DNA of 64,000 nt from Thioploca sp. GTDB lineage: Bacteria > Pseudomonadota > Gammaproteobacteria > Beggiatoales > Beggiatoaceae. Under the pieces are notes generated by a model. That model was not told the origin of the DNA and did not search any database. It saw only the letters and a program-made list of their open reading frames with translations. Positions 17,785 to 50,995 of the stretch are shown in pieces; the stretch's first letter is position 1, and each line of letters begins with the position of its first letter. Location: NCBI GenBank assembly GCA_012032555.1, contig JAAUSR010000019.1, positions 1-64,000 on the forward strand, in the 5' to 3' direction. A program made the position numbers and the translations under genes.

Positions 17785-18087
17785 TTATTCATCCCCTTCC
17801 GTCGGCTTATATTCAGCCACTAATTGCTGCTGAATAGGGACCGGTACGGGTTCGTAATGACTGAATTCCATCGTGAAAAAACCATGCCCCCCCGTGACAG
17901 ATTTTAGTTCCGTTTGATAATTTCTCAGTTCACTTAAGGGAACTTCTGCTTTAACACAAACCATATTCGGTGGTCGAACATCTGTTCCTTGAATACGTCC
18001 GCGTTTGCTCGCCAAGTCACCGGTAATCGTTCCCATATTGTCATCGGGTACCGTAATTTCTGCTTTAACAATCGGTTCTAACACCAT
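17785..18087 (-). CDS. EF-G-like GTPase, C-terminal fragment (domain V) of a frameshifted gene
   Basis: This is the last part of the EF-G paralogue: VLEPIVKAEITVPDDNMGTI, TGDLASKRGRIQG and YQTELKSVTGGHGFFTMEFS are the standard EF-G domain V sequence. The true frame enters from the previous fragment through AFLDAISKAKPMVLEP; the start ATG in the track is internal. The break is at 18114-18118, where a run of five T (coding strand) should be six to give GCT TTT TTA GAT. No independent ribosome site is expected. Confidence 0.85.
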   Translation of the reverse strand: MVLEPIVKAEITVPDDNMGTITGDLASKRGRIQGTDVRPPNMVCVKAEVPLSELRNYQTELKSVTGGHGFFTMEFSHYEPVPVPIQQQLVAEYKPTEGDE

Positions 18088-18110
18088 CGGTTTGGCTTTA
18101 CTAATGGCAT

Positions 18111-18722
18111 CTAAAAAGCTTTTTTACCAGCGGCGATAAAAGCAATTTCTTTGGAATCAACGGAGTGGTACTTGCCATCGTAAACAGTCACTTTAATATC
18201 TTGTAAAGGATAACCGGCAATCGCTCCGAAATCTAAAACTTGCTGAATCCCTTTTTGAATTGCCGGGACATAAACAGCAGGAATAACGCCACCCACAATG
18301 GCATTAACAAATTCAAAGCCAGTACCACGTGGTAGCGGTTCCACCCGTAAAAATACTTCTCCAAATTGTCCAGCACCCCCAGTTTGTTTTTTATGGCGAT
18401 GATGTCCCTCAGCTAAGAGGCTAATCGTTTCCCGATAAGGAATTTTTGGCGGTTGCGTGTCAACTTCGACGTTATACTGCTTAAGCATCCGCTCTAAAGT
18501 GATCCGTAAATGGAATTCACCTAAGCCACGAAGTACTGTTTGATTAAGTGAAGCATTATGTTCCAAAATCAAACAGGGATCTTCTGCCGCTAATTTTTGT
18601 AAAGTTAAACCGATTTTTTGTTCATCACCTTGACGTTTAGTGGCTACGGCTAAGCCGTACATCGGTGCTGGAAAATCCAGCGGTTTAATATGAATCTGAT
18701 CTTCATCATGAGAATCATGCAT
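18111..18722 (-). CDS. EF-G-like GTPase, middle fragment (domains II-IV) of a frameshifted gene
   Basis: Middle section of the EF-G paralogue. It contains LRGLGEFHLRITLERMLKQY (domain III) and IPYRETI...HKKQTGGAGQFGEV (domain IV), ending at AAGKKAF where the second frameshift falls. The family sequence at its start is FDAV-x-HDSHDED; here FDAV is in one frame and HDSHDED in another, so one base is missing at about 18716-18722. Both breaks in this gene are single deletions. Confidence 0.85.
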   Translation of the reverse strand: MHDSHDEDQIHIKPLDFPAPMYGLAVATKRQGDEQKIGLTLQKLAAEDPCLILEHNASLNQTVLRGLGEFHLRITLERMLKQYNVEVDTQPPKIPYRETISLLAEGHHRHKKQTGGAGQFGEVFLRVEPLPRGTGFEFVNAIVGGVIPAVYVPAIQKGIQQVLDFGAIAGYPLQDIKVTVYDGKYHSVDSKEIAFIAAGKKAF

Positions 18723-19831
18723 ACCGCATCAAAATAAATAGCATCAACCTTAGCAATCGCACAGATATCACCCGGAATACCTTGATCAGTTTCTAGTTGT
18801 TGTTTACCTTGCAATTTAAATAAATGGCCTACTTTAAACGGTTTACGAGCATCACCCACATACAATTGACTTTCTTTGGTTACAACGCCTTGATGGACGC
18901 GAAATACGCCTAATTTACCCACAAAAGGATCAGCGGTGATTCTAAAAACGTGAGCAATGACATGTTGATTAGGATCTGGCTCTGCCGTAAATGAGGTAGC
19001 GTTAGTACCCTCTCCCTTTAGAAATGGACGCGGATTTCCTTCTAAAGGGCTAGGCATCAATCGAGTGAAAATCTCCAATAATTCACGGATACCAGCACCA
19101 GTACGCGCTGAAACGAAGCAGATAGGAATTAAATGTCCTTCTCGTAAAGCGATTTCAAAGGGTTCATGAAGTTGTTCTGGTGCCAATTCTTCCCCTTGTT
19201 CCAGATAAAGTTCCATTAATTTTTCGTCAACTTCAACAACTTGATCAATAATTTGGGTGTGAGCAGCGGCGACTGAACCCAAATCAGATTCTCCTTGGGG
19301 GTTGAAGAAGCAATCAACAACTCGATTGCCATTATCAGCGGGGAGGTTAATAGGTAGACATTCATCACCAAAGGAAGTTTTGATATCCGCTATTAATTGA
19401 AGTAAATTCAGTTCGGGGATATCAATCTTATTGATAATAATCATTCGACACAGCTTTTGTTGTGCTGCGCGTTCCAGCATTCGGCGAGTAACCAATTCAA
19501 TACCCGCTGCGGCATTGATGACTACAGCGGCGGTTTCTACTGCAACCAGTGTACTGAGGGAAAGCCCCATTAAATCAGGATAACCTGGGGTATCAATAAG
19601 ATTAATATGCTTACCGGCTTGGTCGATGCTGACAATAGCAGCGCTGAGCGAATGCTGATACTCTTTTTCGAGTGGATCAGAATCACAGACGGTATTGCCA
19701 CTTTCTACTTTACCAGGAGAACTAATCGTACCGGCTTGATGTAATAAGGCTTCAACTAGTGTCGTTTTCCCAGAGCCATTTTGACCAACCAGAGCAATAT
19801 TGCAGATATTTTCAGTTGTATAGTGAGGCAT
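18650..19831 (-). CDS. EF-G-like translational GTPase (FusA2 type), N-terminal fragment of a frameshifted gene
   Basis: GTPase domain of an elongation-factor-G paralogue: G1 is LVGQNGSGKTTLVEALLHQA, G3 DTPGYPDLMG, G4 NKIDIPE. The sequence FVSARTGAGIRELLEIFTRL, followed by an insert and a domain II start (VIAHVFRITADPFVGKLGVF), is of the second EF-G type (often called FusA2 or EF-G-like), not of the ribosomal-operon fusA. The meaningful frame stops at FDAV near 18722; the remaining 24 codons are out of frame. Joined, the three pieces give about 682 residues, the normal length. Function of this paralogue in bacteria is not well settled; it stands alone here. Confidence 0.88.
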   Translation of the reverse strand: MPHYTTENICNIALVGQNGSGKTTLVEALLHQAGTISSPGKVESGNTVCDSDPLEKEYQHSLSAAIVSIDQAGKHINLIDTPGYPDLMGLSLSTLVAVETAAVVINAAAGIELVTRRMLERAAQQKLCRMIIINKIDIPELNLLQLIADIKTSFGDECLPINLPADNGNRVVDCFFNPQGESDLGSVAAAHTQIIDQVVEVDEKLMELYLEQGEELAPEQLHEPFEIALREGHLIPICFVSARTGAGIRELLEIFTRLMPSPLEGNPRPFLKGEGTNATSFTAEPDPNQHVIAHVFRITADPFVGKLGVFRVHQGVVTKESQLYVGDARKPFKVGHLFKLQGKQQLETDQGIPGDICAIAKVDAIYFDAVCMILMMKIRFILNRWIFQHRCTA

Positions 19832-30051: not shown

Positions 30052-30393
30052 ATGCGCTACTTACTATTGTTGATTATATTTTTATTGGGGTTCACTCACT
30101 TTTCTTACGCGGCCGGACACCCTGGAAAATTTGATTTTTATGTCCTAGCTATGTCATGGAGTCCTGATTATTGTGCCAGTCAAGGTAATAATAATGATAC
30201 CCAACAATGTGCCATAGGTAAAAAGCTAGGCTTAGTACTTCATGGACTTTGGCCTCAGTATTACCAGGGTTATCCCCGTAGTTGTACCACAGAAAAATTT
30301 TCTAATTCTTTAAAAGAGAAATTTCCTAACTTATATCCAAGTGATTCTCTTTATGTCCATGAATGGGAAAACATGGCACTTGCTCCGGCTTAA
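30052..30393 (+). CDS. Ribonuclease T2 family protein, 5' part of a frameshifted gene
   Basis: Signal peptide (1-21, FTHFSYAAG). DFYVLAMSWSPDYCAS is the usual start of bacterial RNase T2 (RNase I type), and LVLHGLWPQY is active-site motif CAS I with His64. The second motif straddles the break: HEWE is in this frame and HGTCSG in the next. One A is missing in the AAAA run at 30368-30371; GAA TGG GAA AAA CAT GGC ACT restores HEWEKHGTCSG. The whole protein would be about 217 residues and periplasmic, degrading RNA without base specificity via 2',3'-cyclic intermediates. Confidence 0.88.
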   Translation: MRYLLLLIIFLLGFTHFSYAAGHPGKFDFYVLAMSWSPDYCASQGNNNDTQQCAIGKKLGLVLHGLWPQYYQGYPRSCTTEKFSNSLKEKFPNLYPSDSLYVHEWENMALAPA

Positions 30394-30704
30394 AACAAGC
30401 GGATTATTTAGCACTTTCTAAAAAACTCAAAGAATCAATTGTTATTCCGGCTCAGTATAAATCACCACCAAAACCTTTTCGTACCACCGTAGATGAACTC
30501 AAGAAAGCGTTTCTTGCTACTCATTCAGATTGGTCAAAAGACTTTTTAGCCGTTTCCTGTTCGGGAAAGAGTGGACGGTTTCTTAAAGAAATTCTTTTTT
30601 GCTATTCGCTCGATGGTAAGGCTAATTCTTGTAGTCAAGAAGTTCTCAAGAAGACGGAGAAAAGCTGTGGGAAAAAAGAATTTTTGGTCAGAAATGTGAA
30701 ATAA
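30363..30704 (+). CDS. Ribonuclease T2 family protein, 3' part of the frameshifted gene
   Basis: Continuation in the next frame: KHGTCSGLKQADYLALSKKL completes active-site motif CAS II. Then VIPAQYKSPPKPFRTTVDEL and FLAVSCSGKSGRFLKEILFC follow the bacterial RNase T2 pattern, with cysteines suited to disulfides. The ATG used in the track (MGKHGTC) arises from the shifted frame and is not a real start. Single gene, no partner. Confidence 0.85.
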   Translation: MGKHGTCSGLKQADYLALSKKLKESIVIPAQYKSPPKPFRTTVDELKKAFLATHSDWSKDFLAVSCSGKSGRFLKEILFCYSLDGKANSCSQEVLKKTEKSCGKKEFLVRNVK

Positions 30705-35559: not shown

Positions 35560-36630
35560 TTAATTCGCTCGATTATTTTCCATAAATAACCGCATCTTGC
35601 GAGGTTTAACGAAAACTTGCTCACCTTTATGTAACTTCAACAGCCGATATTGCTCTTTAGTCAATTCCACTTCAATTATTTCAGAATTACTTACTTGTAC
35701 TAATTCCAGGCGGACAGTTGAACCTAACATATAGATATTGCTTACGGTAGCCGCCATCGTATTTTGATCGGCTTCGCGGCTAATTTCTAGTTCATGGGGA
35801 CGGACATAGGCTACAATGGGTGCTTGATGAACTTCAGCATGTTCATGAAATTTAACATCTAAGTCACCCAAACGTATATGTCCCGTTTGGACACGTCCAT
35901 GAAATAAATTAACCGAACCTAAGAATCGATAAACAAAGGGATTAGCCGCATTTTCGTATAGTTCTTCCGGAGTGCCGATTTGTTCGATGTGTCCTTCATT
36001 CATCACCACCACCCGGTCAGCCACTTCCATAGCTTCTTCCTGATCATGAGTCACAAATACACTAGTAACGTGCATGGTATCGTGCAAATGTCTTAGCCAG
36101 CGGCGTAATTCTTTGCGGACATTGGTATCTAATGCGCCAAACGGTTCATCTAATAACAATACTTTGGGTTCGACTGCCAAGGCGCGGATAAGTGCGACCC
36201 GTTGCCTTTGCCCGCCCGAAAGTTGATTGGGATAACGTTCGGCTAATTCGCGCATCTGTACCAAGTAAAGTAAGTCATGGACTTTAGCGCGAATTTCCGC
36301 ATTGGAAGGGCGGAGCTTGCGGGGACGAACTCGCAGACCAAAAGCCACATTTTCAAATACGGTCAGGTGGCGAAAGAGCGCATAATGTTGAAACACAAAT
36401 CCCACTTGACGGTCGCGAACATGGCGAGAAGTGGTATCTTCTCCATGAAATAAAATCAGGCCACTATCGGGTACTTCTAAACCAGCAATAATACGCAACA
36501 GCGTAGTTTTGCCACAGCCTGATGGCCCTAGTAGGGCAACTAATTCGCCCTTGGGTACCTGCAAGTTGATGTCTTTAAGGACAGCAAATTGATTAAACGT
36601 TTTATTAAGATGTTGGATTTCGATACTCAT
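35560..36630 (-). CDS. cysA: Sulfate/thiosulfate ABC transporter ATPase CysA
   Basis: A 356-residue ATPase. Walker A is [11 protein letters not shown] (residues 34-44), the signature [16 protein letters not shown], Walker [13 protein letters not shown], switch [21 protein letters not shown]-like text ([15 protein letters not shown]) and a TOBE-like C-terminal domain ([15 protein letters not shown]) match the sulfate branch. Its start overlaps the cysW stop by 4 bases (ATGA), so translation is coupled. Together the cysTWA products import sulfate or thiosulfate; the binding protein (CysP/Sbp) is not in the window and must be elsewhere. Confidence 0.92.
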
Positions 36631-37487
36631 AGCGCAGTTTTCGGTCTACTGATTGGTTTTAATATACGCCATTCTAGAAATGTTTTTAGGACTAAGGTCA
36701 CTAATGCGAGTAAAGCTAGCAAAGAGGCTACCGCAAAAGCGGCTACAAAATTATATTCATTATAGAGAATTTCAACATGTAAAGGCATGGTATTGGTTAA
36801 CCCGCGAATATGTCCGGAGACAACGGACACAGCACCAAATTCTCCCATCGCTCTGGCATTACACAAAATAACGCCATAAAGTAGTCCCCATTTCATATTA
36901 GGCAAAGTGATATACCAAAAAGTTTGCCAACCATTAGCGCCTAATACCAGTGCGGCTTCTTCTTCCTCATTACCTTGTGCTTGGAGTAAAGGGATTAATT
37001 CCCGAGCTATAAACGGAAAAGTGATAAACACGGTTGCCATAACAATACCGGGGACGGCAAAAATGAGTTGGATATTGTGAGCCGCTAACCAAGGTCCGAG
37101 TAGACCTTGAGCACCAAACAACAGCACAAAGATTAGTCCAGAAATGACCGGGGAAACCGCAAACGGTAAGTCAATCAAGGTAATTAATAAACTTTTGCCA
37201 ACAAATTCAAATTTCGCAATCGCCCAGGATGCGGCTATGCCAAAAACCAGATTTAAAGGCACCGCAATAGCTGCAGTCAGTAAAGTCAGACGGATAGCCG
37301 CTAACGCATCCGGTTCAGTCAGTGCCTCAAAATAGGCGGTTACCCCCGATTGTAAAGCTTCAGTGAAAACAATGACCAATGGGAGCAACAAAAAAAATAT
37401 TAAAAACAGCAACGCCAGTATCGTCAATAGATAACGTACCCAAGCGGGTTCTGTCGTTGCACGATGGGGAATGACTTGTGTAAACAT
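36627..37487 (-). CDS. cysW: Sulfate/thiosulfate ABC transporter permease CysW
   Basis: A 286-residue inner-membrane protein with about six membrane segments. [20 protein letters not shown] starts it, and [20 protein letters not shown] and the ATPase-contact loop [20 protein letters not shown] (EAA motif) identify it. [20 protein letters not shown] is highly typical of CysW. AGGA precedes the ATG. It lies 8 bases after cysT and overlaps cysA by 4 bases. Confidence 0.93.
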
Positions 37488-37495
37488 GGATAATC

Positions 37496-38326
37496 CTAAT
37501 GATGTCGTCTACTACTCCACCATTGCAATGAATTTATTAAAAATAGCAAAGTAAATGAAACGACCAACATCACCACGGCAATAGCAGTAGCACCCTGATA
37601 ATCATATTGTTCCAGTTTAGTAATAATTAACAGTGGCGTAATTTCTGAAACCATCGGCATATTTCCTGCGATAAATACGACTGAGCCATATTCACCTAAA
37701 CCACGCGCAAAGGCTAAAGCAAATCCCGTTAGCAATGCTGGCCATAAATTGGGTAAAATGACTAAAGTAAAAGTCTGCCAACGATTAGCACCTAAACTCA
37801 CCGCCGCTTCCTCTACTTCGATTTCAGCTTCCTGCAAAATCGGTTGTACGGTGCGAACGACAAACGGTAATCCAATGAAAGTTAAAGCCACCACGATTCC
37901 CCAAGGGGTAAAAGCCACTTTGAAGCCTAAAGGTTCTAGGTAACGTCCAACCCAGCCATGACTAGAATAAATAGCTGTTAAAGCGATACCCGCCACTGCA
38001 GTTGGTAAAGCAAACGGCAAATCAACTAAAGCATCGAGTATGCGTTTACCCCAAAATGAGTACCGCACTAATACCCAGGCAACGAGTAAACCAAACACGA
38101 GATTGATAATAGCGGCTAATAACGAAGCACCAAAAGTCAGCCGGTAGGAAGCAACCACTCGAGCATTGCTGATGGTACTCCAAAAATCTCCCCAACTCAT
38201 GGTTGCGGTTTTAAGGAATACAGTTGAAAGGGGAATAAGCACGATTAAACTCAAATATAACAGCGTTAATCCCAAAGCTAAGCTAAAACCAGGTAAAACA
38301 CTATATCGTTTGGTCAAAGTTACCAT
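37496..38326 (-). CDS. cysT: Sulfate/thiosulfate ABC transporter permease CysT (CysU)
   Basis: A 276-residue inner-membrane protein: [20 protein letters not shown] start, [23 protein letters not shown] loop [20 protein letters not shown], and [20 protein letters not shown], all CysT signatures. It is the first gene of the cysTWA operon; the 636 bases before it must hold the promoter. In sulfur oxidisers such transporters can serve assimilation when reduced sulfur is scarce. Confidence 0.93.
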
Positions 38327-41548: not shown

Positions 41549-42190
41549 TTAATGTGGCGGCATCGGAATAAACACCGGCACCTCCCCAGGAAAATTGTGC
41601 AATTGACGGAGTTGGTGGTCATCTGTATCAATCGGTTTAAGATGAATATAGTAATAATCGTTCCGTTCAATAATATATTCGGTCGGTTCTGCTTCGGTGC
41701 TAATGAACAGGTTATTATGGATTTGAATGTGCATATATCCTTCTAGAAGTTCAAAGTAATCAACGGGTAGATCTTGAGGTTTTACTATCCAATCAACGGT
41801 TACTTTTTCTTTTAAGTTAATAACAGTACCCTGTTTGAGGCGAGGATCAGCAGTTGCTTCGGTAGCAGATACTTCTCGCCATTGTGAACCAACTTGAATG
41901 AAAACGCGTACTTGTGGGAGCATTAAAAAAATATCATATTCTGGAAAGAGATTTTCTATCCACAGCGTGATTTGATAGCGTCCGTCAGCAGTGTAAACCA
42001 CTTTGTCAAGATCAGCACGAACATAAAACCACGCCTTTTTTTCTAATTGGGCTTGGGCTTCTTGGCGTGCGCTTAGAATATGTGTTTGATAAGCACCAAT
42101 AATAAAATCGATGGTGATTAACAAGATGATCATGATAAGCGCTATGCTACTGATCTTAGACCAATTAATCTGTTTAGTTGAACGATTCAT
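41549..42190 (-). CDS. Single-TM protein of unknown family, paralogue B next to ABC transporter
   Basis: A 213-residue protein with one N-terminal membrane segment (about 14-34) and the rest probably periplasmic. YTADGRYQITLWIENLFPEY, TEATADPRLKQGTVINL, GYMHIQIHNNLFIS and ERNDYYYIHLKPIDTDD are shared almost position by position with the gene 8 bases upstream. I do not recognise the family. No cysteine pair or enzyme motif is visible; the beta-rich soluble part could be a ligand-binding or adaptor domain. It is the last gene of a six-gene row with two FtsX-type permeases and two ATPases, so it is probably an accessory part of that transporter (inference). Confidence 0.7.
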   Translation of the reverse strand: MNRSTKQINWSKISSIALIMIILLITIDFIIGAYQTHILSARQEAQAQLEKKAWFYVRADLDKVVYTADGRYQITLWIENLFPEYDIFLMLPQVRVFIQVGSQWREVSATEATADPRLKQGTVINLKEKVTVDWIVKPQDLPVDYFELLEGYMHIQIHNNLFISTEAEPTEYIIERNDYYYIHLKPIDTDDHQLRQLHNFPGEVPVFIPMPPH

Positions 42191-42198
42191 TGGTCATA

Positions 42199-42843
42199 TT
42201 ACCATCTTGGTATAGTAGGAATAAATATGGGTGCTTCTCGTGGGAAACCATTGATAATTCGTAGAGAGTTATCATCACTGCCAATCGGTTTGAGGTGAAT
42301 ATAGATCACGTCATTCCGCTCTGCAACATGTTCCTGCGGTTCTAATTCTGGACTGACTAACATCTGACTGTGGATTTGGAGGTGCATGTAGCCAGGAAAT
42401 GCTTGAAAATAGTTAGGCGTGGTGATCTCCATAAGCCAATCAACTGTAATGCGACCGGTTAAAGGAATAACACTACCAGCGGTTAAACGGGAATCACGTG
42501 TTGCTTCAGTTGTTTTCACTTCTTGCCATTGTGGGCCAACTTGGACAGCACCTTGTACTAAGGGCATCATCACGAAAACTTCGCGTTCGGGGAATAAATT
42601 TTCAATCCACAGGGTCAGTTGATATCGGTTATCTGCGGTGTAGGTGATCTTGTCCACATCAGTTCGTACATAGAACCAAGCCATTCTTTCTATTTCAGCT
42701 TGTGCTGCTCGTTTGGCGGCGAGTAAGCGACTTTGATAATTTCCCACGCAAATATCGATGGTGACTACAACTAACACTATAACTATTAACCAGCGAATTA
42801 TTTGGTTTCGCTGCACGCTACCTACTCTACGATTCAATGCCAT
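42199..42843 (-). CDS. Single-TM protein of unknown family, paralogue A next to ABC transporter
   Basis: A 214-residue paralogue of the next gene. The correct start is the ATG at 42843 (MALNRRVGSVQRNQ): the 19 extra residues in the track (MGFADALPILLQN...) come from translating the palindrome at 42870-42905. One membrane segment (about 17-37), then YTADNRYQLTLWIENLFPER, TEATRDSRLTAGSVIPL, GYMHLQIHSQMLVSPELEPQ and ERNDVIYIHLKPIGSDD. The proteins end in parallel (FPREAPIFIP and FPGEVPVFIP). The strong conservation of RND-x-x-Y-I-H-L-K-P-I suggests a functional surface. Family unknown. Confidence 0.72.
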   Translation of the reverse strand: MALNRRVGSVQRNQIIRWLIVIVLVVVTIDICVGNYQSRLLAAKRAAQAEIERMAWFYVRTDVDKITYTADNRYQLTLWIENLFPEREVFVMMPLVQGAVQVGPQWQEVKTTEATRDSRLTAGSVIPLTGRITVDWLMEITTPNYFQAFPGYMHLQIHSQMLVSPELEPQEHVAERNDVIYIHLKPIGSDDNSLRIINGFPREAPIFIPTIPRW

Positions 42844-42869
42844 TAAATTAAATTCAAAAATGTTCTGGA

Positions 42870-42905
42870 GTAGGATGGGTAGAGCGTCAGCGAAACCCAT
42901 CCTAC
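42870..42905. repeat. Palindrome GTAGGATGGGT...ACCCATCCTAC
   Basis: GTAGGATGGGT, AGAGCGTCAGCGAA, ACCCATCCTAC: perfect 11-base arms. A common dispersed intergenic repeat type. It sits between the last ATPase gene and paralogue A, inside the transporter gene row, so the RNA can form a stable hairpin there. Confidence 0.85.
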
Positions 42906-42914
42906 AACATCTGA

Positions 42915-43622
42915 TTATGATTGACTAATTTTACCATCACGTAACAGGAGTCGACGACGAGTCCGAGCGGATAACTCGGGATCATGGGTGACCATAACAA
43001 TGGTATGGCCTTCTGCATTCAGTGCTTCAAATTGTTGTACGATTTCTAATCGCGTTTCGTGATCAAGATTGCCAGTGGGTTCATCAGCTAAAATCAGTAG
43101 CGGTTGATTAATAAGGGCACGAGCGATGCAAACGCGTTGTGCTTCGCCGCCACTCAGTTGATGTACTAAGTGATTGGCTCTTTTTTCTAAACCCACTTTG
43201 CTAAGTAGTTCCAAAGCACGCTGGCGAACTTGTTTACGGTCGCCAACAAAAGCAGTGGGTAACATAACGTTTTCCAATGCCGTTAGTGATGGGAATAGTC
43301 GCGCTTCTTGTAAAACATAAGCCACTTTACGACGACGGATAACTAATAAGCGTTGCTCTTTGAGCGTGTCGATACGTTCACCATCTAGGTAAACTTCACC
43401 GCTGGTGGGTTTATCAATTCCGCCGATTATATTTAATAAAGTTGATTTTCCTGAACCACTGGGCCCCATGAAGGAAAGATATTCCCCGGGTAGTATGGTG
43501 AGATTCATGTCATCCAAAGCATAAACAGAATGATCGCTAAGCGGATAGACTTTGGAAATATGACTCAACACCACCAATGGTTGAGAATTGACAGCGACTT
43601 TGACGGAAGCATTGGTATTCAT
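42915..43622 (-). CDS. ABC transporter ATPase, LolD/MacB type (second of two)
   Basis: A 235-residue ATPase. [20 protein letters not shown] is Walker A, LSGGEAQRVCIARALINQPL the signature, [12 protein letters not shown] Walker B, MVTHDPELSARTRRRLLLRD the switch. The pattern is that of the LolD/MacB/FtsE group, which work with FtsX-type permeases. It starts 12 bases after the permease gene at 43635-44852 and is probably its partner. Confidence 0.9.
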   Translation of the reverse strand: MNTNASVKVAVNSQPLVVLSHISKVYPLSDHSVYALDDMNLTILPGEYLSFMGPSGSGKSTLLNIIGGIDKPTSGEVYLDGERIDTLKEQRLLVIRRRKVAYVLQEARLFPSLTALENVMLPTAFVGDRKQVRQRALELLSKVGLEKRANHLVHQLSGGEAQRVCIARALINQPLLILADEPTGNLDHETRLEIVQQFEALNAEGHTIVMVTHDPELSARTRRRLLLRDGKISQS

Positions 43623-43634
43623 CGGTTAATTTCC

Positions 43635-44852
43635 TTATTGCGCACGAAATGCGGTAGCGACTGAAATCCGTGAGGTATGGAGTGCTGGCAACAGGGTAGC
43701 TAGCAAACTCGTCATAATCGCGGCAACAACGGCTAAAAGCGGTTCCCACCAGTGTAATTCAATAATTGCACCGGATAATAGCCACGGTCCCACCCCAAAC
43801 GCAATGCTAACGCCTAGTGCATAACCAATTAAACCACCGAGAATACCGAGCGCAATGGATTCATAAGCAAAAGTTCGCATCAATTGCCAACGTGACGCAC
43901 CGAGCACTTTGAGCAAGCCAATTTCACGAATCCGCCCATGCATGGTTCCCATGATCATGTTAAATACCGCCATACAAGCCATTAACAGTGATAATCCCAC
44001 TAAAGTGAGAATAACGTGGGTGACATTGCGAAAGATTTTATGTTGGGCTTGAGCGATTTCTCGTTGTGACGTAGCGCGGACCCCGACTACTTTTTGATTG
44101 ATGGCTAATTCAGCATCCCCAACCGGGCAATAATTGCACATCGCCCTCACATTAATCAGAGAAACTAAACCTTGTTTACCAAATAGTTTTTGTACAGTTG
44201 GTAAGGTGCTAAAAATCATGTAATCATCGGGCGAATCAGTCTCACGGAGAATACCACCCACTTTGAAGGACTGACCATTGATATCGACCCGATCGCCGAC
44301 TTTAACGCCAGTGATAGCCGCAAACACTTTACCAACCATAACTTCTTGTGGATCGTTCATGAGATTACCCGAATCCACTTCCCACCAGAAGCGCGTTTGA
44401 TATTCCGCTACTGAATCTACGCCGGCCACTACCACCCGTCGATCAAGCACATTCGTTTCTTCATAAAGGCGAGGAGCAAAAATAGCTTCCTGAATTTGTT
44501 GTTCGCCACCAAAGGGAATACCGGATTGTAAGACTAGTCCACCCATCCGTTCCCAACCCGTTTTGATAGCGGCATCGTAAATAGTCCGAATGCTTGGAAT
44601 GGCTTCTTCTGGAATATAATGACCGCTGCCGATACCAAATGATTGTAAACTCGTATCCATCGTGGTTGCTGGTAAGATAGTGAGGCTATGCCCATAACGA
44701 GCAATGGTAAGTAGTAAGTCTTTTTGTCCAGCCGAACCCACTAAAATGGTCGCTACCAATAAGGCAACACTCAGTGCAATACCACTGGCTGTATATAAGG
44801 TGCGGATTTTACGCCGTCCAATTTCTCTTAAAGCCAGCTGATATAGTCTCAT
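43635..44852 (-). CDS. FtsX/MacB-type ABC permease with a CxxCP motif (second of two)
   Basis: A 405-residue permease with the FtsX plan: a first membrane segment (about 20-42; RRKIRTLYTASGIALSVALL), a large extracytoplasmic domain, and three C-terminal segments (about 275-300, 325-350, 365-390; REIGLLKVLGASRWQLMRTF is the coupling region). The outer domain includes INVRAMCNYCPVGDAELAI. I recall a similar CxxCP-x-x-D element in permeases next to periplasmic iron/copper proteins of the Campylobacter P19 type; here no such gene is present. The start overlaps the upstream ATPase gene by 4 bases. Confidence 0.85.
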   Translation of the reverse strand: MRLYQLALREIGRRKIRTLYTASGIALSVALLVATILVGSAGQKDLLLTIARYGHSLTILPATTMDTSLQSFGIGSGHYIPEEAIPSIRTIYDAAIKTGWERMGGLVLQSGIPFGGEQQIQEAIFAPRLYEETNVLDRRVVVAGVDSVAEYQTRFWWEVDSGNLMNDPQEVMVGKVFAAITGVKVGDRVDINGQSFKVGGILRETDSPDDYMIFSTLPTVQKLFGKQGLVSLINVRAMCNYCPVGDAELAINQKVVGVRATSQREIAQAQHKIFRNVTHVILTLVGLSLLMACMAVFNMIMGTMHGRIREIGLLKVLGASRWQLMRTFAYESIALGILGGLIGYALGVSIAFGVGPWLLSGAIIELHWWEPLLAVVAAIMTSLLATLLPALHTSRISVATAFRAQ

Positions 44853-45514
44853 TGCAATTTACCTTTCTTCATCTGTAACACGCGATCAGCACGCTGTGCG
44901 AGGTGAAGGTTATGAGTTACCATGATCAAGGTTGCTTGGTGTTGGCGAATGTTAGTTAACAGCAATTTCATAACCTCCGCTTCGGTTTCTTCGTCTAAAT
45001 CTCCAGTGGGTTCGTCGGCGAGAATCAGGATGGGATTGTTGATAAGTGCCCGAGCAATCGCTACGCGTCGCTGTTGTCCACCAGAGAGTTCATTGGGATA
45101 AGCATGGATTTTATCCGCTAAACCAACAATTTGGAGCAGTTGCTGCGCTTTCTCCTGATTGGCCCATTGCAAACCTTTGGGATTAAATAAACAGGGCAAC
45201 ATGACATTCCCAAGACAATCGAGCGTTGGAATCAAACTAGCAAATTGAAAAATAAAACCGACTTTGTTATTACGAATTCGTGCACGACCACAATCGTTTT
45301 TTGACCAAAGATCCTCATCTTCGATGAGAACAACACCAGCAGTCGGTCGTGTTAAACCACCCATCACACTCAGTAAAGTTGATTTGCCGCTCCCGGAATG
45401 TCCAATGATAGCCACAAACTCTCCTCGTTTTACGGAGAAATTAATATTCTGTAGCGCTTCAATAGATTCGGTACCAAAATGATAAATTTTTTGTAATTCT
45501 TTGACTGTAAACAT
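44849..45514 (-). CDS. ABC transporter ATPase, LolD/MacB type (first of two)
   Basis: A 221-residue ATPase: [20 protein letters not shown], signature [20 protein letters not shown], Walker [13 protein letters not shown], switch [20 protein letters not shown]. Its start overlaps the stop of the upstream permease by 1 base and its end overlaps the next permease by 4 bases. Two ATPases with two permeases suggest either two exporters or one hetero-complex. Confidence 0.9.
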
Positions 45515-46719
45515 TATTCACCTGCTCGAATAGCCTCGTAGGGATCGACGCGACTAGCTGCAACTGCCGGATACATCGCGCCGAATATGCCTACCATAAT
45601 TGATAAAGTGATCGCTGCTAGGGCCAACAAAGTAATGTCAGACCAAGCCGGCCACAAAAACGGAATATTTAAGGATTCCAAGTGAAATCCAATGGTTCGA
45701 CGGTATACCCGCATGAGCACAGCACCCAGCATGACACCGAAGACCCCCCCCGCTGCCGTTAATAAACTCGCCTCCACTATAACTAATTGAAATATCCTTT
45801 GTTTTCTAGCACCAATCGCACGTAATAGACCCAGTTCTTTTTTGCGTTCATTGATGATGGTGGAGAAAATGGCACTGATCATCAAAATATTCGCGATGAT
45901 CAGTACGGCACTCAGAAATACCGTACCGGTGAACAAGGCGGCCAGATTTTGACGTACTGAGGTGACGATGTTACCGGCAGAAATGACTTTGACTTCGGGA
46001 TAGCGACTGATAGAGAAACGGACGACATTAACGGGTGCGGTTCTTTCCAACTGCACTAACAAAGCAGAAATCTGACCTTTAGCAAATCCGAGTGGAGCCA
46101 CATCGGTAAATTTCTTAGCATTCTCGGCAAGTTCGTAGGCTTTCTCGATTTGAATAAAAATAGCATTGTCATACAGTCCAATTCCAGTTCGATCCAGCTT
46201 GCCGTAAACCGTGAAATATTGTCCATAAAAATAGACACTATTACCTAATTGATAAGGATTGTTAGCACCCACAATGGCATCCGTTAACTTAAATTCTCGG
46301 GGCAGTTTTTGAGTAAGCCAAGGCAGCACAGTGAAATCATTGTGTGGATCAAAACCGACGAGAAAAGCATTGCCAATAATGCAATGTGAGCCTTCGGCAG
46401 TTGTTAGAAACAGTTGCGGGGTAACTTGACGGATTCCTTTGAGGGTACGCAAACGGTCAGCTAAGGATAGATCCATGTAAAATGTTGATGGTTCACCCGT
46501 TAACAAGGCGGTTTTCATACCTACCAAAGCCCCTTTAGGAACAACCAAGAGATCGGCACCAAATTTAGAGAAACCTCGATCTAAACTGCGTTCTACCCCC
46601 CACATTACCGTAGCAGTTGAGAATACTGCACCACCTGCTATGGCTACCGCGAGTGCCAGTGCGTAAGTACGGAAAGGTTTACGCAGTAAATTTTGAATAG
46701 CTAGCCCTATTAAGGTCAT
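45514..46719 (-). CDS. FtsX/MacB-type ABC permease (first of two)
   Basis: A 401-residue permease. AIQNLLRKPFRTYALALAVA and FSKFGADLLVVPKGALVGMK open it; GIRQVTPQLFLTTAEGSHC and FDPHNDFTVLPWL are in the outer domain. The C-terminus has three membrane segments with ERKKELGLLRAIGARKQRIF and YPAVAASRVDPYEAIRAGE. The GADLLVVPxGA ... VSPQLxLxT ... FDPxxDFTxxPWL pattern is one I recall from the permease pair linked to P19-type metal proteins. It is the first gene of the row; about 30 bases upstream lies the RAYT-like remnant. Confidence 0.87.
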   Translation of the reverse strand: MTLIGLAIQNLLRKPFRTYALALAVAIAGGAVFSTATVMWGVERSLDRGFSKFGADLLVVPKGALVGMKTALLTGEPSTFYMDLSLADRLRTLKGIRQVTPQLFLTTAEGSHCIIGNAFLVGFDPHNDFTVLPWLTQKLPREFKLTDAIVGANNPYQLGNSVYFYGQYFTVYGKLDRTGIGLYDNAIFIQIEKAYELAENAKKFTDVAPLGFAKGQISALLVQLERTAPVNVVRFSISRYPEVKVISAGNIVTSVRQNLAALFTGTVFLSAVLIIANILMISAIFSTIINERKKELGLLRAIGARKQRIFQLVIVEASLLTAAGGVFGVMLGAVLMRVYRRTIGFHLESLNIPFLWPAWSDITLLALAAITLSIMVGIFGAMYPAVAASRVDPYEAIRAGE

Positions 46720-46747: not shown

Positions 46748-47071
46748 TCATGTTTTCTTTGAATGAAGTTGGTGGAGAATTCTATCCACTGGGTTGGCTT
46801 TTAAGTACTGAATAAGTTGTTTAGCTGTGTAAGCCTTAAATCGGTGTACTTCTTTAGGTAAATCTTCTGCTTGGGCAATCCAGTGGAGATGGTTTTCTAA
46901 AATGACGTTGCCGTATAGTTTAAGTTGATGATGGGTTTGTAGATAAGACCAGCAATCTAAAATAATTTGTACACTACCAGGATGAATAAACAGTGGTATC
47001 CAATTTAACACTGTGTCGGTGAGGAAGTGAGGAAGTTGGTCTTCATAAATAGTGTAGCGGGAACGTCCCAT
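46748..47071 (-). pseudogene. RAYT-like (REP-associated tyrosine) transposase, C-terminally truncated
   Basis: The true start is the ATG at 47071 (MGRSRYTIYEDQLPHFLT); the 58 extra residues in the track derive from a palindromic repeat and from antisense of yoeB. LPHFLTDTVLNWIPLFIHPG, LKLYGNVILENHLHWIAQAE and VHRFKAYTAKQLIQYLKANP are Y1-transposase sequence; ENHLHW holds the His-x-His metal site. In intact relatives another 80 or more residues follow, with the catalytic tyrosine region; here it ends at HQLHSKKT. Therefore probably inactive. A RAYT next to a palindrome (47112-47133) is the arrangement by which such enzymes mobilise REP elements. Confidence 0.72.
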
Positions 47072-47111
47072 AGGTTTTTGTGAGCAGTTAAAAGTAAAAG
47101 AGTGATACACA

Positions 47112-47133
47112 TTCCCACGCTGGAACGTGGGAA
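47112..47133. repeat. REP-like palindrome TTCCCACG-CTGGAA-CGTGGGAA
   Basis: Perfect 8-base arms; the full unit reads TTCCCACGCTGGAACGTGGG, AACGAG. It lies 40 bases upstream of the RAYT-like start codon. Closely related sequences (CTCCCACGCTGGAGCGT) form the tips of the inverted repeat at 56463-56649. Confidence 0.8.
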
Positions 47134-47198
47134 CGAGAAAAAATTTCCCTTCTTTGAAAAAGAAAGTTAGGGAAAATTTTAAAGTAAAATTACATTCT

Positions 47199-47462
47199 CT
47201 AGTCTCGATAATGATATCGGCAGCTAATAACACGAATGAATTCATTAGTCACCTCATAAACTAATCGGTGTTCCTGAGTAATTCGTCGTGACCATAAACC
47301 AGATAAGTTGTAACGAAGTGGCTCAGGTTTACCTTTACCCGCAAAAGGTTTAATTGGTAGCTCCTCAATTAACTCAAAAATCTTCAAAGCGATTCGCCTA
47401 TCTTGATGAACCCACCACTTTAAATCTTCAATTGCTTGTGGGTCGATCAGCAGAGATTTCAT
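47199..47462 (-). CDS. yoeB: YoeB-family mRNA interferase toxin
   Basis: An 87-residue toxin of the RelE/YoeB type that cleaves mRNA in the ribosomal A site. DLKWWVHQDRRIALKIFELI, GKGKPEPLRYNLSGLWSRRI and EHRLVYEV are typical; the catalytic residues Glu47, Arg66, His84 and Tyr85 (end CRYHYRD) are in place. Its start overlaps the antitoxin stop by 4 bases (ATGA). It appears functional. Confidence 0.93.
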   Translation of the reverse strand: MKSLLIDPQAIEDLKWWVHQDRRIALKIFELIEELPIKPFAGKGKPEPLRYNLSGLWSRRITQEHRLVYEVTNEFIRVISCRYHYRD

Positions 47463-47722
47463 AAATCCAATTCAGACTTGACTTCATCCCATTTTTTCGC
47501 TTCTTGAGGAGAGCGTTTAGCTGCTTGTAAAAGTTTATCGGTATTAACCGGATTGCTGAGCAAATGCAGAGTTTCCATCAAACTCCAATAATCTTCTTCT
47601 GCTAATAAAACGGCCTTACCTATGGTTTGGGCATGGATACATAAAGGTTCATGTTGAGTGATAACTTGTTGAATAAGTGTTGGCAACAATTGGCCGGCTT
47701 CTTGGTCAGTCATCGTTTGCAT
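47459..47722 (-). CDS. yefM: Phd/YefM-family antitoxin
   Basis: An 87-residue antitoxin: ATDQEAGQLLP-like start (MTDQEAGQLLPTLIQQVITQ), then IGKAVLLAEEDYWSLMETLH, the Phd/YefM signature (VLxSxExYxSLxETxxLL), and an acidic, probably unfolded C-terminus (EAKKWDEVKSELDL) that wraps the toxin. The N-terminal half should bind its own promoter as a dimer and repress the pair. GAGGA sits before the ATG. Toxin follows with 4 bases overlap. Confidence 0.88.
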   Translation of the reverse strand: MQTMTDQEAGQLLPTLIQQVITQHEPLCIHAQTIGKAVLLAEEDYWSLMETLHLLSNPVNTDKLLQAAKRSPQEAKKWDEVKSELDL

Positions 47723-47894: not shown

Positions 47895-48256
47895 TTATAT
47901 TTTTGAGGCATCGACTTTCTTTCCAGTAATGTCTCCGGCGAGAAGAATTTCTCGCCATTCCGTGAGTTCAGCAGAGACAATTGCTTCCATGCTGTTCACG
48001 AAATCTTCAAGGCTTTTTGGATCATCCGGGGTACTTTCTGAACGGATTTCATACCGTAGCTTTACCCATTTTAAGCGTTCTCCTGTTAATGCGAAATTAA
48101 CGTATTTTGATCGAAACTGAAAGTTTGCACTTAACCCAGTAGCAACAGTCGTAATAACTGCAGGTAACACAATTTCTGTCTTTCATACCACTCGATAAGA
48201 TCTGTGCATCTCTTTATCGCAAGCTCTCGAGCTTTAACCTCAGGCTGATTAACCAT
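47895..48256 (-). pseudogene. SLATT/DUF4231-like membrane protein, shortened and frameshifted
   Basis: The track shows only 91 residues, but an ATG at 48256 with GGGGGAAA upstream opens MVNQPEVKARELAIKRCTDL, IEWYERQK in the next frame. Adding one A in the AAA run near 48178 joins it to IVLPAVITTVATGLSANFQF, then YVNFALTGERLKWVKLRYEI and FVNSMEAIVSAELTEWRE. The ends fit SLATT/DUF4231 proteins (x-W-Y-x-x-Q-K ... W-x-x-Y-x-x-T-x-E-x-L-K), but the middle, with the first of two membrane segments, is missing. SLATT proteins are suspected membrane effectors in bacterial conflict systems. Next to a toxin-antitoxin pair, this looks like a decayed defence gene (inference). Confidence 0.5.
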
Positions 48257-48429: not shown

Positions 48430-49938
48430 TTAAGTGGTCGTACAACGACTAATCCTTAAATCTTCTAATGTTCTTGGTACAATAACACTATCATGATGTC
48501 CGGAAGCACTGGGCAAAAAGCCAATCACCTCGTCGGTTTCAGTTTCCATAATGGCAATGGCGGAAGTAGTCTTTTGATAGCCGCTAATCACACCAACGAC
48601 CCATTTACCATCATAAGTCATGCCCATCGTATGCATATCCGGACCTAAATCAACTGATTTGAGTAATTTCCAATTAACGGCGTCAATCACAGCAATACCA
48701 TTCGGTGTTGGAGATGGCCACCATAAGGTCACGTAGCATTTTTTGCCGTCGGGTGTAAACACCATATGGAAGGTATTAGGATAGGAACCACGCCAATTCG
48801 GATCTTCAACAATAGCCGTTTTTTCCCATTTAGTGGGATCGGCATGATTACTCGTATCCCAAACCATAATATTGTTTTGGCGAACGCCATTCATAAATAA
48901 AAATCGACTACCATCGGGTGAAAAACCGGCTTGGTGCGCAGGAGTAACTACCTTGGACATTTCTACTTTCCAAGTATCATCATCAATTTTGGTCAGTGGT
49001 GCTTGAGAAGGTTCGCCTTTTGGTCCTAACAGTGCCGCTACCGGTTGCCAGTTGTCACGGTCAAAGATGATAGCTAGTCCTAATAAGCGAATAGAAACAG
49101 CACCCCATTTGCCACGTGGATCATAAGGAAAGGCATCTAATGCACAAGTATTAATTACTCGTGGACCAGGTACTTTGCCTTGCTCGGCAAATAATTCACC
49201 TCCCGGAACTAATTCCCAATCGAGTTTGATTCCTTTGGTGCCTTTATAGTCATACATCCCATTGGGAAGGGTTGGTTTGATGCGTTTGATGATAAGTGTT
49301 CCGCCATCGAGCCACGCTTTTTCTAGCTGAGTGTTATTGGGAATCCAGTCAAAAAACCAAGCAGAACGGACTGTCTCGGCCGCTCGGTCAAATTCAGCAA
49401 AGATATCTTTTTGACCATCGGCAATAGCAAATCCAGTTGCATCAGGAGTAGAAGTGACATGAACTCCCAATCCCATACCGGTTTTTTCGGCGATATCCGA
49501 AACAAGATTCATTTTAGTACCATCCCAACGAATCTTGTAAATATTAAAACCTTCTCCCGGATCTTTTACAGTGGTAGGAATACCATAGATGTAAAGGTTT
49601 TTACCACCTTGGGTATTCACAATGAATTCAAATTCTTTGTAGGGATCTTCTGAAGGAAAGCAGGTGAGGTGGTGCATAATCGGGATGGTGTTACCATAGT
49701 TCCATAACGCAATCCAACCCAGGGTTTTGCCCGTACTCATGTCAATAGCTGAGACGGTTCCGGCGAATTTTCCGGGAAGTAAACAAATATATTTGCCAAA
49801 TTGCTCATAGACATCAGACAACTTTAGCGCTTTTTTACCAAAAAAAGCTTGTGCTTCATTGCCAACTACACTGGCTGTTCCAGCGGCAGCTGCACCGAGT
49901 CCAACCGTTTTGAGAAAGTTTCTTCTATCCTGGCTCAT
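48430..49938 (-). CDS. Probable thiocyanate dehydrogenase (Tat-exported copper beta-propeller)
   Basis: A 502-residue protein with a twin-arginine signal (RRNFLKTVGLGAAAAG), hence folded with cofactor before export. The body is a nitrous-oxide-reductase-like beta-propeller. Visible potential copper ligands: His89 and His90 (MHHL), His160 (GVHVT), Asp268 (CALDAF), His335 (PAHQ), His391 (TFHM), His436 (DMHTMG), His482 (GHHD). I recall the trinuclear copper ligands of Thioalkalivibrio paradoxus thiocyanate dehydrogenase as His135, 136, 206, Asp314, His381, 437, 482, 528; all differ by exactly 46. That enzyme oxidises thiocyanate to cyanate and sulfur. The divergent neighbour is a SCO copper chaperone, as expected. 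It lacks the CuA domain of nitrous oxide reductase. Confidence 0.82.
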   Translation of the reverse strand: MSQDRRNFLKTVGLGAAAAGTASVVGNEAQAFFGKKALKLSDVYEQFGKYICLLPGKFAGTVSAIDMSTGKTLGWIALWNYGNTIPIMHHLTCFPSEDPYKEFEFIVNTQGGKNLYIYGIPTTVKDPGEGFNIYKIRWDGTKMNLVSDIAEKTGMGLGVHVTSTPDATGFAIADGQKDIFAEFDRAAETVRSAWFFDWIPNNTQLEKAWLDGGTLIIKRIKPTLPNGMYDYKGTKGIKLDWELVPGGELFAEQGKVPGPRVINTCALDAFPYDPRGKWGAVSIRLLGLAIIFDRDNWQPVAALLGPKGEPSQAPLTKIDDDTWKVEMSKVVTPAHQAGFSPDGSRFLFMNGVRQNNIMVWDTSNHADPTKWEKTAIVEDPNWRGSYPNTFHMVFTPDGKKCYVTLWWPSPTPNGIAVIDAVNWKLLKSVDLGPDMHTMGMTYDGKWVVGVISGYQKTTSAIAIMETETDEVIGFLPSASGHHDSVIVPRTLEDLRISRCTTT

Positions 49939-50302
49939 GATGGAGTTCCTCTACTTTTTATCTCAATGAGTAAGCCGGTTGATCAGAAATCTTCTTCAAG
50001 ATGAGATAAATGGATGCTTAAACAACTTGTTAAGTTATTTGGCATCGACCGCCAGGTAACTATCACGAAATTCTTATTGTACATTGTTTCCTGCTGGTCA
50101 CAGTTTTCTCTGCTGAAGTTTCCAATCAGCCAATATACCACCAACTTAACCTACCCGTTTTGGTATCATTACGACTTTGAGAAGCGATTATGCTCATGCT
50201 AAGATGAGTAGTCATGCTCAGTATCGTTAAGACAATTCTAATTTAGCCTGATACCATCACTGATAAAGTTAGTCTTACGAATTATATAAAATATATTTTA
50301 TT
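49939..50302. promoter_or_regulatory. Divergent promoter region of the copper enzyme and SCO genes
   Basis: 364 bases between the two start codons. GGAG lies 9 bases before the enzyme's ATG (minus strand). An AT-rich part (TATAAAATATATTTTATTATG) immediately precedes the SCO gene, which has no evident ribosome site. The ORF at 50014-50202 in the track has no protein-like features. No clear operator palindrome was found by eye. Confidence 0.45.
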
Positions 50303-50995
50303 ATGCAAATAAAATCTTTATTTACTCGTCGTTTTATACTTGGAATAACCAGTCTTGTTGCAGTAGTTACCTTGGCATTATGGCTCTGGTATTCACCAAC
50401 AATGCTGCCTAGTCTTATTGAAGGAGAAGCCGAGTCGATCTTAGCCGGAAAAATATTCCAACAACCTCAACCGCTCTATCCTTTTCAATTAGTTGATCAC
50501 GATGGCAAAGCATTTAATATCAATCGACTCCATGGCTATTGGAGTTTCTTATTTTTTGGATATACTCACTGTCCCGATGTTTGTCCGATGACTTTGGTCA
50601 CTTATAAGGAAATACATCAACAGTTATTAAAACGTTTAAATCAAGTTACGGATATCCAATTTATATTTATCTCGGTTGATCCACAGCGAGATACGCCAGA
50701 ATTACTGAAGCAGTATGTTGGCTATTTTCATCATGATTTTATTGGCGTCACCGGTACCCTCAGTGCACTACGAGATTTTACTGAGCCGCTGGGTATTTTT
50801 TATCGGCAAGTAGAACGACCTGGGGAAGGAACCTATTGGGTAGAACATTCCGGTTCTATTTTGCTTATTGATCCGCAAGCCAGATTGAGCGCTTTATTTC
50901 CAGCACCACATCATTCACGTGATTTAGTCGCAGCTTATTTACAAATTCGTGAACAATTTCAAGTTCATTTACCGAAAACGGCTCGAGTAGAGTAA
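50303..50995 (+). CDS. SCO1/SenC/PrrC family copper chaperone
   Basis: A 230-residue protein with one N-terminal membrane segment (about 10-30) and a thioredoxin-like domain facing the periplasm. The copper site is THCPDVCPMTL (Cys90 and Cys94) with His181 in VEHSGSILLID; ISVDPQRDTPELLKQYV is the other family signature. SCO proteins deliver copper to or reduce CuA sites; here no cytochrome oxidase genes are near, and the divergent neighbour is the probable copper enzyme, so it is likely to help to assemble that enzyme's copper centre (inference from position). Confidence 0.92.
   Translation: MQIKSLFTRRFILGITSLVAVVTLALWLWYSPTMLPSLIEGEAESILAGKIFQQPQPLYPFQLVDHDGKAFNINRLHGYWSFLFFGYTHCPDVCPMTLVTYKEIHQQLLKRLNQVTDIQFIFISVDPQRDTPELLKQYVGYFHHDFIGVTGTLSALRDFTEPLGIFYRQVERPGEGTYWVEHSGSILLIDPQARLSALFPAPHHSRDLVAAYLQIREQFQVHLPKTARVE

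Follow-up and report, generated by a model that had tools for sequence, protein, structure and literature searches.

The window analysed here, a stretch of 64,000 nucleotides from the genome of a Thioploca sp. (G000), encodes a protein of 502 amino acids that is almost certainly, judging from its sequence, a copper-containing thiocyanate dehydrogenase (TcDH; EC 1.8.2.7). Its gene lies next to a divergent gene for an SCO-type copper chaperone and upstream of a set encoding two ABC transporters and two anchored periplasmic proteins (Table 1). We consider it very probable that this is a periplasmic TcDH of the type found with an ABC cluster in Thioalkalivibrio and Pelomicrobium, which, by analogy with its characterised homologues, would oxidise thiocyanate to cyanate and sulfur. 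Of these products, the sulfur would pass into the ordinary sulfur oxidation of the cell, and the cyanate could be hydrolysed by an unlinked cyanase. A probable role of the SCO protein is to deliver copper to the TcDH site or to reduce it, and the two transporters and two anchored proteins are probably involved in maturing the enzyme or supplying it with copper.

Table 1. Genes of the TcDH cluster in the window, and TcDH homologues of three Nitrospirota loci (positions preceded by the locus name)
Feature	Position	Strand	Evidence or remark
SCO1/SenC-type copper chaperone, divergent from TcDH	50303-50995	plus	Pfam SCO1-SenC, E = 2.8e-41
Thiocyanate dehydrogenase (TcDH), 502 aa	48430-49938	minus	ATG start; Tat signal; phmmer/PDB homology
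SLATT-domain protein fragment	47895-48170	minus	NCBIfam NF033634, E = 6.8e-12, profile positions 61-130 of 132
YefM/Phd-type antitoxin	47459-47722	minus	Pfam PhdYeFM, E = 2.8e-11
YoeB-type toxin of a type II toxin-antitoxin system	47199-47462	minus	Pfam YoeB_toxin, E = 7.4e-33
REP-associated tyrosine transposase, truncated	46748-47245	minus	NCBIfam NF047646, E = 1.8e-10, below cut-off
ABC permease 1, FtsX/MacB type	45514-46719	minus	Pfam FtsX, E = 8.8e-16; MacB_PCD, E = 2.2e-7
ABC ATPase 1	44849-45514	minus	Pfam ABC_tran, E = 3.5e-35
ABC permease 2, FtsX/MacB type	43635-44852	minus	Pfam FtsX, E = 8.2e-15; MacB_PCD, E = 2.5e-11
ABC ATPase 2	42915-43622	minus	Pfam ABC_tran, E = 7.4e-37
Hypothetical protein B, membrane-anchored periplasmic, paralogue of A	42199-42900	minus	Homologues syntenic in L004-L009 and L011
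Hypothetical protein A, membrane-anchored periplasmic	41549-42190	minus	Alignment; AlphaFold2 pLDDT 91.5
TcDH homologue, Nitrospirota	L009:9905-11383		Sec-like start, by eye
TcDH homologue, Nitrospirota	L010:9400-10782		Sec-like start, by eye
TcDH homologue, Nitrospirota	L011:7263-8750		Sec-like start, by eye

The closest characterised relatives of the protein are the TcDH of Pelomicrobium methylotrophicum (structures 8q9x and 8z75), an organism of a different lineage, and that of Thioalkalivibrio paradoxus (5f75 and 6g5m). In phmmer searches of the PDB, these enzymes were matched at more than 850 bits (E = 6.9e-256 for 8q9x and 1.2e-240 for 5f75), and residues 36-502 of the window protein (467 residues) align with both of them without a gap, at 74.3% and 68.5% identity, respectively. 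The ligands of the trinuclear copper site of T. paradoxus are His135, 136, 206, 381, 437, 482 and 528 and Asp314, and the further active-site residues include Lys103, Gln156, Glu288, Asp529 and Arg544 (PMC6504805, Figure 4 legend). Each of these 13 residues has an identical counterpart in the window protein 46 positions earlier, the ligands being H89, H90, H160, D268, H335, H391, H436 and H482; the protein has nine histidines, namely the seven at ligand positions plus H365 and H481. Tyr164 of T. paradoxus, which has been proposed to belong to the path by which electrons leave for cytochrome c552 (PMC9456337), corresponds to Y118, so that the 14 residues checked in the active site and exit path are all conserved. 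For the T. paradoxus enzyme, an activity of about 11 umol/min/mg with ferricyanide is on record (PMC9456337), and a structure of its H482Q variant, altered at the equivalent of H436, is available as 6sji.

The initial annotation had recognised the eight ligands by their constant offset of 46 from the residue numbers of the Thioalkalivibrio enzyme, and both the offset and the numbers hold against the alignment and the published legend. The constancy of the offset, which it had considered hard to get by chance, is the plain consequence of gap-free homology at 68.5% identity, and chance is rejected as its source. The Tat export that it had proposed for the 502-residue protein agrees with a Tat signal scoring above the NCBIfam cut-off (TIGR01409, 25.9 versus 16.7 bits) and containing an RRNFLK motif; the T. 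paradoxus enzyme likewise has a Tat signal.

The AlphaFold2 model of the protein, built from an alignment of only eight sequences, is weak (pLDDT 66.7), and the predicted convergence of the ligands on one site of a seven-bladed propeller rests instead on the 74% identical crystal structures. When this weak model was used as a Foldseek query, PDB ranks 1-20 were all TcDHs (TM about 0.82-0.83), the next match having E = 9e-13. This outcome bears on the reading of the protein as a nitrous oxide reductase-like enzyme of the lactonase-type clade, to which a weak match to NCBIfam NF052460 (E = 3.5e-5, over about 98 residues) could point. That match scores 22.5 bits where the cut-off is 700, far below the scores obtained with TcDHs, so that membership of this family is already refuted by sequence comparison and the reading has practically no probability left.

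Across 17 aligned TcDH-like proteins, the copper ligands are invariant, whereas Y118 is replaced by Asn in five distant homologues at class level (L013-L017; 31-36% identical). In a tree of 18 rows, the window protein falls with T. paradoxus, Pelomicrobium, Betaproteobacteria and Nitrospirota, and the distant group stands apart with support of 100/100, although the branching order among the proteobacterial lineages is unsettled. The alignment and tree that the initial annotation had proposed as checks consequently place the protein among the TcDHs of the ABC type. The distant group probably corresponds to the TcDH homologues of Thiohalobacter and Guyparkeria, which have all copper ligands but carry Cus genes in place of the ABC set (PMC6504805); TcDH was thereby already reported outside the haloalkaliphilic sulfur bacteria from which the initial annotation gave it as known. 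The Nitrospirota homologues listed in Table 1 keep all copper ligands and have signal peptides that, by eye, are Sec-like and not Tat-like, a difference that would be relevant to the compartment, cytoplasm or periplasm, in which the copper is inserted. A 47% identical homologue, annotated as hypothetical, is encoded at L022:9563-11407 on a 303-kb plasmid of Methylocella tundrae and is followed by one ABC permease/ATPase pair.

Within the family, full-length TcDH was found only in the window genome and in a sister genome of the same genus (G001), and in none of the 35 other family genomes searched. The search covered 25 genera, the number of GTDB genera that PMC11172852 gives for the Beggiatoaceae, and to the level of family the organism is indeed Beggiatoa-like, as had been suggested. 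The sister genome is probably Thioploca ingrica, and the window would then probably represent a second species of the genus of T. ingrica. A TcDH homologue and an ABC permease were already noted in T. ingrica by Berben et al. in 2017 (PMC5328954, PMC5744179), so that the novelty proposed initially, a widening of thiocyanate oxidation to large sulfur bacteria, is not supported. The sparse distribution in the family, taken with the relatives found in other classes, points to a lateral acquisition that predates the divergence of the two species. The sister genome has the same cluster, with a TcDH 97% identical to that of the window. Between the two genomes, dN/dS is 0.029 for TcDH (at dS 0.51), 0.034-0.086 for the ABC genes and 0.14-0.15 for the hypotheticals and SCO; TcDH is under strong purifying selection, and selection maintains the cluster in the genus.

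The part of the cluster that lies downstream of TcDH (41549-46719) had been missed by the initial annotation. The order permease-ATPase-permease-ATPase-hypothetical is conserved in Sulfuritalea (L004, L008), Zoogloeaceae (L005), Burkholderiaceae (L006), Tv. thiocyanoxidans (L007) and Nitrospirota (L009, L011, and also L010 up to the end of its contig). The ABC proteins are 47-70% identical across these syntenic loci: permease 1 is 59-68% identical to the gene adjoining TcDH in L004-L011, ATPase 1 shows 49-60% identity and ATPase 2 57-63% identity to the syntenic genes, and permease 2 shows 47-70% to the full-length ones. The same arrangement has been described in Thioalkalivibrio, where TcDH is followed downstream by genes for four ABC subunits and for one or two hypothetical proteins (Berben et al., PMC5328954), and thiocyanate strongly induces the TcDH operon of T. 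thiocyanoxidans (PMC5744179). Thioalkalivibrio carries CopCD, TatA and FccAB on the opposite side of TcDH, and it also has a histidine kinase and a sigma-54 regulator; the window, in contrast, has SCO in the divergent upstream place of copCD, lacks the regulator pair and holds mobile debris within the cluster. A sulfate-type ABC transporter (35560-38326), which by eye comprises two permeases and one ATPase, is encoded a few kb beyond the TcDH cluster.

No Pfam or NCBIfam family matched hypotheticals A and B. The AlphaFold2 model of hypothetical A consists of one long N-terminal helix and a beta-sandwich, for which Foldseek returned no convincing structural relative; its best matches were the cytoplasmic domains of Kir channels (TM at most 0.45, rmsd about 5-8), and these would point to a shared beta-sandwich and not to a function. 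The alignment reveals conserved Met and His residues in the hypotheticals, with M90, a PGYMH-like motif and a C-terminal PMPPH in hypothetical A, which might, as a suggestion, be compatible with copper handling. It is because the ABC genes and the hypotheticals accompany TcDH across classes and phyla that they are read as probable factors of maturation or copper supply. A more ambitious proposal, in which we place tentative belief and somewhat more doubt, is that the two ABC transporters and the beta-sandwich family form a dedicated and widely shared TcDH apparatus, with a role in maturation or copper supply like that of NosDFYL, the accessory proteins of nitrous oxide reductase, and that different lineages would have separately recruited a periplasmic copper chaperone to it (CopCD, or SCO either alone or with PCuAC).

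The cluster is interrupted in the window by a gap of about 1.7 kb between TcDH and permease 1, filled with mobile-element and toxin-antitoxin debris. In the sister genome, a longer copy of the transposase is the only insert at this place, and the YefM-YoeB pair and the SLATT fragment, which is probably a remnant, are absent from the locus. These inserts, which part TcDH from the ABC genes, count against the preferred explanation. Elsewhere in the window, an elongation factor G-like coding sequence appears to be split over three open reading frames (17785-19831; pseudogene or assembly error) and a ribonuclease T2-like gene over two overlapping ones (30052-30704; frameshift or assembly error).

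The divergent SCO gene, already pointed out as the source of a copper-delivery partner, encodes a protein with an N-terminal membrane anchor and a CPDVC motif, and the proposal is a reasonable one. The divergent arrangement of SCO and TcDH was seen in five of the ten ABC-type loci surveyed (the window, the sister genome, L004, L005 and L008), the SCO of the sister genome being 88% identical to that of the window. A gene that is PCuAC-like by eye separates SCO from TcDH in both Sulfuritalea loci, and in L004 SCO is followed by a TlpA-like gene. In a tree that is provisional, as it contains a long outlier row, the SCO of the genus groups with Beggiatoaceae SCOs (94/88) and apart from the betaproteobacterial SCOs adjacent to TcDH, so that the pairing of SCO with TcDH probably arose more than once and the SCO of the window was probably recruited separately. 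This same grouping favours an alternative, compatible with the TcDH assignment, in which the adjacency is accidental and SCO serves the cbb3 oxidase or NosZ. T. ingrica is reported to have a cbb3 oxidase and nosZ and to lack an aa3 oxidase (PMC5728499); SCO is therefore not needed for an aa3 CuA site, and NosZ is still a possible client. Nevertheless, both genomes of the genus and three loci of Betaproteobacteria share the divergent arrangement, with a PCuAC-like companion in Sulfuritalea, and both genomes have a second SCO for other duties, that of the window genome being 45% identical, which makes the copy adjacent to TcDH an extra one. Accidental adjacency is on balance unlikely.

Three further observations count against the preferred explanation: the missing regulator pair, the lack of a cytochrome in the window and a TcDH-bearing sister genome without cyanase. 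According to the open reading frames, a membrane sensor kinase and a sigma-54-type regulator adjoin the clusters L004, L005, L007, L008, L009 and L011, but this pair is absent beside TcDH in the window and in the sister genome, where the L005 sensor found kinase-domain matches only and no full-length counterpart in either genome. A scan of the window detected no sigma-54 promoter upstream of TcDH; the five matches observed compare with 6.0 expected by chance, and just one of them is near TcDH, within the coding sequence of that gene. A sigma-54-type regulator beyond SCO in the sister genome was rejected as the missing regulator, as its counterpart in the window genome is split and on another contig. 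The whole window contains no CxxCH cytochrome open reading frame of at least 80 amino acids. With neither the pair nor a cytochrome c in the window, regulation and electron acceptor must be unlinked. The window genome has a cyanase gene, unlinked to the TcDH cluster. Cyanase was found in only three of 43 family genomes, including the window genome and not its sister, and the eight genomes with the ABC-type loci L004-L011 include one that has it, a distribution that rules it out as a linked marker.

The missing regulator pair would also fit a copper enzyme of TcDH fold that has kept the active site and has another role or substrate, such as a small sulfur or nitrogen anion, or detoxification instead of energy metabolism. 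Such a role would further agree with the fact that the relatives in Nitrospirota, in Betaproteobacteria and on the Methylocella tundrae plasmid are not obvious thiocyanate oxidisers. However, none of the 14 checked residues is changed, the window protein is nearer to the TcDH of Pelomicrobium than the enzyme of T. paradoxus is (74% versus 69% identity), and the cluster matches that of a proven thiocyanate oxidiser. A different role or substrate is accordingly improbable, and the protein is best read as a TcDH.

The conservation of this cluster from Betaproteobacteria to Nitrospirota opens a comparative approach to the assembly of the tricopper site. Since TcDH is sparse in the family and found in one genus, the trait is not extended to giant sulfur bacteria generally; for filamentous sulfur bacteria of the Thioploca type, thiocyanate oxidation becomes a concrete and testable trait.
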